A DNA stretch of 64,000 nucleotides from Actinomadura sp. HBU206391 (lineage in GTDB: Bacteria; Actinomycetota; Actinomycetes; Streptosporangiales; Streptosporangiaceae), in contig NZ_JABVEB010000015.1 in the NCBI RefSeq assembly GCF_014323665.1, positions 1 to 64,000 of the forward strand. The letters are read 5' to 3'. Both the position numbers and the translations under genes were made by a program. Positions 11,927 through 12,213 of this stretch are shown piece by piece. Position 1 is the first letter of the stretch, and the number at the start of each line of letters is the position of its first letter. The notes below the pieces were generated by a model. The model saw only the letters and a list, made by a program, of their open reading frames with translations, made no database searches and had not been told where the DNA came from.

Positions 11927-11937
11927 GGCTGACTCGG

Positions 11938-11943
11938 TAAACT
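11938..11943 (+). promoter_or_regulatory. putative -10 box in front of the cysteine leader peptide
   Basis: TAAACT ends 7 bases before the ATG of the 34-residue ORF, so the A of the ATG would be at or next to +1. The box sits just behind the mec stop codon. Confidence 0.5.
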
Positions 11944-11950
11944 GGGGCAC

Positions 11951-12055
11951 ATGCAGACGATCGAGCGGAGGCCACGCGGCTTCTCCCGTCTGTCGCCCGT
12001 CCAGAACTGCCTGTTCGGGCACTGCCGCGCCGAAGTGGTCTACGACTGTTCCTGA
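11951..12055 (+). CDS. 34-residue Cys-containing leader peptide upstream of cysO
   Basis: A 35-codon ORF (MQTIERRPRGFSRLSPVQNC, then LFGHCRAEVVYDCS) lies between mec and cysO. It has three Cys codons (20, 25 and 33), the last immediately before Ser and the stop. There is no ribosome binding site, but a TAAACT box is positioned for leaderless transcription. The gap to cysO is 158 bases. Cys-rich leaderless mini-ORFs act as cysteine-responsive attenuators in mycobacteria; a similar role here is inferred from position and content. The Cys codons here are spread out rather than clustered, and I could not identify a clear terminator/antiterminator pair. Confidence 0.55.
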   Translation: MQTIERRPRGFSRLSPVQNCLFGHCRAEVVYDCS

Positions 12056-12213
12056 GGTGTCCCCCCGGCCCGGAATTCGCCGAGTGCCCCGCCGAGTTGT
12101 CTAGCGATGGGCCCAGGCCGTGTCCGGTTCCAACGGTTTCAATGGGTCTAACGCCCTGGCGGCCCCTGGCCCACCGACCACAAGCCCCGTACGACGCTAA
12201 GGAGACCATCGCG

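Follow-up and report, generated by a model that had tools for sequence, protein, structure and literature searches.

Through the ubiquitin-like CysO route, cysteine is produced under oxidative stress. The route has been regarded chiefly as a target of SigH/SigR. In M. tuberculosis, mec-cysO-cysM is under direct SigH control (PMC4803200), and diamide induces cysM in S. coelicolor (PMC4340878). Leader peptides have been described at other actinobacterial genes. Candidate cysteine leader peptides without terminators were predicted upstream of cys operons in Actinobacteria (Seliverstov et al. 2005; PMC1262725). These leaders have Cys runs, come from Mycobacterium, Propionibacterium, and Bifidobacterium, and stand before cys operons or cbs, and they include none at mec-cysO. 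Cys-run leader peptides were also predicted in Actinobacteria before other genes (PMC4633059). The mycobacterial polycysteine attenuators (NF042936, leader_Ms4527A; NF042933, leader_Ms5788A), as described in papers that cite Canestrari et al. 2020, are leaderless upstream open reading frames (uORFs) before a sulfur or cysteine gene, with Cys near the C terminus and no intrinsic terminator. Another model, NF042934 (cis_reg_atten, "putative leader peptide"), describes leaderless leader peptides of the HVDL.R.ASA.CR type at sulfur genes. Finally, arrest peptides of the TnaC and ErmCL class combine a conserved C-terminal motif at or beside the stop codon with a variable N terminus and a regulated gene directly 3' of them. 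In the literature that we searched, no paper links cysO with a leader peptide.

The window, the whole 64,000-nt stretch of Actinomadura sp. HBU206391 DNA that we analysed, carries a short uORF between mec and cysO (Table 1). A spacer of 158 nt separates its stop codon from the cysO ATG at 12214. A preliminary description had reported this frame as a mini-ORF with three Cys codons, 7 nt behind a TAAACT and lacking a ribosome binding site, which it saw before cysO. All of these elements were found in the sequence at the positions given, and the Shine-Dalgarno (SD) sequence is indeed absent before the uORF and present before cysO. Its gene names mec, cysO, and cysM were borne out by the PF14464, PF02597, and TIGR01136 matches. 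That description did not mention the conserved amino acid core, the sigma-R-type promoter in the spacer, or the variability of two of the Cys residues.

Table 1. Features of the mec-cysO-cysM locus in the window
Feature	Position	Strand	Basis or remark
mec, JAB peptidase, upstream gene	11516..11926	+	Pfam PF14464, E 5e-32; stop codon 11924-11926
P1, putative leaderless promoter, -10 element TAAACT	11938..11943	+	7 nt before the ATG at 11951
uORF, putatively leaderless, of 34 codons and a stop, encoding the leader peptide MQTIERRPRGFSRLSPVQNCLFGHCRAEVVYDCS (34 residues)	11951..12055	+	No SD; purifying selection in the core, neutrality in the N-terminal part; Cys at 20, 25, and 33; stop TGA 12053-12055
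Conserved peptide core PVQNCLFGHCRAEVVYDCS	11996..12052	+	Family HMM, E 1.9e-12; F, Y, D, and C invariant in 76/76
V-V-Y-D codons GTGGTCTACGAC, proposed 5' side of long-range helix	12035..12046	+	Synonymous constraint, pS 0.10
Cys33 codon TGT, proposed regulatory codon	12047..12049	+	TGT in 76/76 loci
P2, sigma-R/SigH-type promoter GGAAT-N19-GTT, 3' of the uORF	12072..12098	+	Motif in 63/76 uORF loci
Hairpin position around the P2 -10, weak in the window	12088..12111	+	Well formed and covarying in 54% of uORF loci
GACCAC, candidate 3' side of long-range helix	12176..12181	+	Perfect complement of GTGGTC 12035-12040
cysO Shine-Dalgarno AAGGAG	12199..12204	+	Sequence
cysO, ThiS/MoaD-like sulfur carrier, regulated gene in the model	12214..12504	+	Pfam PF02597, E 1e-18
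cysM, cysteine synthase, directly 3' of cysO	12506..13453	+	TIGR01136, E 5e-107

We located cysO in 150 of the 151 genomes of the family and analysed 130 mec-cysO intervals of Streptosporangiaceae. A uORF ending in [P/A]VQx[F/Y]LF[A/G]H[T/S/C][P/R]xxVVYDC was present in 76 of these loci and absent from the other 54. Beyond the residues that never change, the core H and V-V are almost invariant. The core Cys is followed by R, S, P, or H, with the stop codon soon after, and the N-terminal part of the peptide is unalignable among the 76 loci. Peptides of the genus's other two species share 100% and 85% identity with that of the window. The preliminary description had made its reading depend on the frame being kept in relatives; it is kept, with synonymous variation.

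The motif is tied to cysO. We scanned 84,980 genomes of bacteria and archaea with the exact degenerate pattern. This gave at least 118 places, and cysO lies directly behind 115 of 118 among the matches listed. The other three are two uORFs that end less than 80 nt from the edge of the fetched stretch (L302 and L348) and one MEC tail near a stretch end (L340). The organisms among the matches listed are Streptosporangium, Nonomuraea, Actinomadura, Microbispora, Planomonospora, and relatives, together with Blastococcus, Modestobacter, Geodermatophilus, and Klenkia. The family HMM found a single copy in the window's own genome, and neither that search nor the places found by the scan, edge cases aside, revealed a motif detached from cysO. 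Across the phylum, an HMM search produced nothing outside the class but weak, short matches. The window peptide matched nothing in Pfam or NCBIfam (in NCBIfam not even at E 10), including NF042936, NF042933, and the sequence-unrelated NF042934 (cut-off, 27 bits), and Rfam gave nothing at E up to 1 over positions 11400 to 12700. What appears to be new is therefore a leader peptide before cysO that the family models do not match, the earlier actinobacterial Cys leaders being Cys-run peptides before other genes.

Selection acts on the peptide and on its codons. The pN/pS ratio was 0.35 in the first half of the core and 0.18 in VVYD, compared with 1.05 in the region before the core. These low values indicate that the peptide itself matters, and protein-level selection is confined to the C-terminal core, with a free N terminus. 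Within the core, pS was lower at VVYD than upstream (0.39). The conserved Cys codon is always TGT, against a TGC:TGT background of 171:22 in the long ORFs of the window and 71:6 in mec plus cysO. The two Val codons of VVYD are GTC in 137 of 152 cases, compared with 53% in mec plus cysO; the other conserved Val, at position -16, is GTG in 64 of 76. By these counts, the VVYDC codons, with their GTC-GTC, are constrained as RNA as well as protein. A reading of the conservation as RNA only was rejected, because the core varies synonymously while its residues hold.

The start of the uORF follows a fixed geometry. The preliminary description had proposed a leaderless design, and at the level of sequence this was upheld: TANNNT lies exactly 6 or 7 nt before the in-frame start codon in 75 of the 76 uORF loci, compared with 2.0% of other upstream start codons. 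The exception (L086) has AGGAGG before its ATG. The same geometry was seen in 76 of 80 named loci of an overlapping second set. No sigma-70 -35 consensus was found near the uORF. A fixed spacing between the -10 element and the start codon is the signature of leaderless initiation, and because of it we infer that the transcript begins at the uORF ATG.

Together, these observations make a strong case that the uORF encodes a leader peptide, and very probably it is a built-in switch of cysteine synthesis that has not been described before. One relative offers further support. In locus L025 (genome G026), 99 bp before cysO, a leaderless MSGVDTNTEPGSLLVARLHVDLARIASALCRPRRARG that matches NF042934 (E 4e-8, 32.6 bits) stands in place of the VVYDC uORF. 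Three leaders of the NF042934 type score above the cut-off elsewhere in the window's genome (L368, L369, and L370, on contigs C46, C99, and C151). Two of them precede apparent sulfur genes, and together with the replacement in L025 they support a leader-peptide role. Read by eye, the genes behind the three are a DUF4395 and rhodanese pair, a nitrite/sulfite reductase, and a dicarboxylate symporter. We consider it probable that the uORF represents a new family of cis-acting leader peptides for the MEC-CysO-CysM route, in which a ribosome pause at the last Cys codon controls cysO translation.

The motif also occurs in a second format. In Geodermatophilaceae (49 of 60 genomes), it is the C-terminal tail of MEC, ...VVESYLFGHSPTTVVYD-TGA, and there is no separate ORF. 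These tails end in VVYD without Cys, and the stop codon lies exactly at the position of the Cys codon. In families f7, f125, and f119, too, the motif forms the tail of MEC; some of these tails contain Cys (VDYECSGR, VVYDCPPS, and VYDCS) and one does not (VYEQ). In family f126, the motif is free. Because the tail LFGHSPTTVVYD continues the ordinary MEC end, ...VVESY, the free uORF has the look of a MEC tail that became separate. An intermediate between the formats was seen in L357 (2440-1907, minus strand), where MEC carries a fused ...PTSVVYDC and a further 16-residue tail.

This second format bears on an alternative in which the uORF encodes a ligand-sensing arrest peptide similar to TnaC. 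The nascent chain would bind an effector in the exit tunnel, perhaps cysteine or another sulfur metabolite, and would stall at VVYD when either the Cys codon or a stop codon occupies the A site. In that case, the Cys codon would mark a position and would not itself be the sensor. The main argument for such a nascent-chain sensor is that Geodermatophilaceae keep the motif as VVYD-TGA in every case. With no Cys codon in the motif, Cys-codon starvation cannot be the mechanism there. The conservation also spans about 16 residues upstream of the Cys, which is more than codon sensing needs. At the level of sequence, the uORF shares with the TnaC and ErmCL class the conserved C-terminal motif at or beside the stop codon, the free and variable N terminus, and the regulated gene directly 3'. 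However, the Cys is invariant in all 76 Streptosporangiaceae uORF loci and is encoded by the slow TGT, a better fit to codon sensing, and we found no comparable arrest motif of the VVYD(C) kind in the literature searched. We regard a ligand-sensing arrest peptide as unlikely, with a chance that is small but real.

The fusion to MEC could also mean that the peptide is a protein acting in trans. It could, for instance, serve MEC, CysO, or CysM as a docking tail, which Streptosporangiaceae would make as a separate small protein and Geodermatophilaceae as part of MEC. The tail does extend the MEC end. However, the synonymous constraint on the VVYDC codons, the position directly before cysO with no detached copy found, and the replacement of the uORF by a known type of leader peptide in one relative all argue against action in trans. 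We also modelled MEC with AlphaFold, as a monomer and from an alignment of 36 MEC proteins. The JAMM core was ordered and the tail was disordered, with a pLDDT of about 43, and Foldseek on this model found matches to the JAMM core only. Docking by the MEC tail was rejected on this monomer model, and we consider a role of the peptide in trans to be improbable.

The preliminary description had likened the uORF to the mycobacterial cysteine attenuators, and ordinary Cys-starvation attenuation of the polycysteine type, in which the flanking peptide would be irrelevant, fits several features: the leaderless uORF, the Cys codon near the stop, and the cysteine gene downstream. However, this likeness did not hold up in the peptide. 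Unlike the polycysteine attenuators, the uORF family has no Cys run; it has one conserved Cys, always TGT, within a long conserved peptide, VQ.[FY]LF.H....VVYDC, and its Geodermatophilaceae relatives lack Cys and are fused to MEC. Of the three Cys codons first noted in the window, only that of Cys33, the next-to-last residue, kept its standing, and Cys20 and Cys25 vary in relatives (SFLFGHSR and KFLFAHTP). The non-Cys residues are strongly conserved, and the Cys-rich leader models are unmatched. We therefore find ordinary Cys-starvation attenuation very doubtful. A chance ORF without function, which the mere 34 codons and the absence from 54 loci of the family might suggest, has a negligible likelihood, because the conserved core, the fixed spacing of -10 element and start codon, the uniform TGT, and the specificity for cysO place the uORF far from chance.

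For the cis-acting leader peptide, the VVYDC codons have a predicted pairing partner, a box 10 to 30 nt before the cysO SD. Its common sequence, ACGAC or GACGAC, is present in 60 of the 76 uORF loci compared with 14 of the 54 loci without a uORF. Between the VVYDC codons and the SD region of cysO, the expected number of pairs was 6.5 in the native sequences and 3.7 after synonymous recoding (76 loci; Wilcoxon p 9e-8, with related genomes treated as independent, as in all of our family statistics). Other windows of the uORF gave 1.9 and 3.0. When uORFs were swapped between loci, the value stayed at 5.9, which conservation on both sides would predict. In one clade (L113, L118, and L120), the uORF has GTGGT instead of GTCGT and the downstream box is ACCAC. 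With a ribosome placed on the Cys codon, the mean predicted unpaired probability of the SD rose from 0.18 to 0.30; exposure increased in 40 of the 76 loci and decreased in 12.

The preliminary description had proposed folding the spacer to look for mutually exclusive structures. Pairing of the VVYD codons is supported across the family, but the window's own leader folds no better than shuffled sequences (z +1.1). Its long-range pairing amounts to 0.91 expected pairs, and the clearest match, between GTGGTC and GACCAC (Table 1), is not favoured in the ensemble. Because the window's own leader pairs weakly, the RNA part of the model applies at the level of the family. A consistent long-range helix was not found in other families, with one strong case (L239, 8 bp). 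The reported lack of a terminator was confirmed: there is no intrinsic terminator between the leader and cysO and nothing terminator-like within 11400 to 12520, so the locus does not resemble a classical terminator-type attenuator.

A second promoter motif lies between the uORF and cysO. GGAAT-N18/19-GTT, the SigR/SigH consensus, is present at this position in 32 of the 54 loci without a uORF as well as in most uORF loci (Table 1), compared with 0.55% under a Markov null. The same motif precedes cysO in the known SigR/SigH cases (M. tuberculosis, PMC4803200; S. coelicolor, PMC4340878), but here the promoter sits between the leader peptide and cysO. In uORF loci only, a hairpin spans the GTT of P2, with a stem score of 13.4 compared with 8.6 for shuffled sequences and 10.6 when the two arms came from different loci. 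Where the uORF is absent, the score was 8.4, compared with 8.8 when shuffled. The hairpin of the uORF loci shows compensatory changes; that of the window scores 8, which is the shuffle mean. We rejected a reading of this dyad at the P2 -10 as a DNA operator, because its arms change sequence with compensation. Since P2 lies 3' of the uORF, a transcript started there would contain neither the uORF nor the hairpin's 5' arm.

We propose the following model for the cis-acting leader peptide. A housekeeping promoter inside or just behind mec would produce a transcript that begins at the uORF ATG, and a 70S ribosome would read the leaderless uORF. The nascent ...VQxFLFxHxxxxVVYD would then meet the UGU Cys codon, which is decoded slowly and lies one or a few codons ahead of the stop. 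A shortage of charged tRNA-Cys would make the ribosome pause at this UGU, perhaps helped by the conserved nascent chain, so that cysteine would be the signal that is sensed. The paused ribosome would cover the VVYD codons and thereby permit translation of cysO-cysM. Without the pause, the VVYD codons would pair with the box upstream of the cysO ribosome binding site, a pairing that has statistical support, and may thus damp cysO-cysM translation. Under thiol-oxidative stress, a P2 transcript without the uORF could bypass this control.

A broader version, which we offer tentatively as a possibility, would cover both formats. The motif would be a regulatory nascent-chain element that has switched between two forms, a MEC tail (in Geodermatophilaceae and others) and a free leaderless uORF (in Streptosporangiaceae), always directly upstream of cysO. 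It would sense sulfur status via the ribosome and would be bypassed by the thiol-stress promoter.

The leader peptide would add a second, translation-coupled layer of control to the CysO route across a large family of antibiotic-producing actinomycetes. The peptide motif can be tested directly for ribosome stalling, and its forms with and without Cys, free and fused to MEC, provide a natural experiment that separates codon sensing from nascent-chain sensing. The uORF also suggests that leader peptides can be recognised without an amino-acid-rich appearance.

Two further observations concern the neighbouring sequences. In three Geodermatophilaceae loci (L188, L199, and L200), a strong CCTCCTGC...GCAGGAGG hairpin lies right behind the MEC tail and before a sigma-R-type promoter, and its left arm resembles an anti-SD sequence. 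The terminal GG of CysO is expected to be the thiocarboxylate terminus. CysO of the window's genus has six residues beyond this GG, and many relatives end right at GG. Activation of CysO in this genus would therefore need proteolytic trimming.
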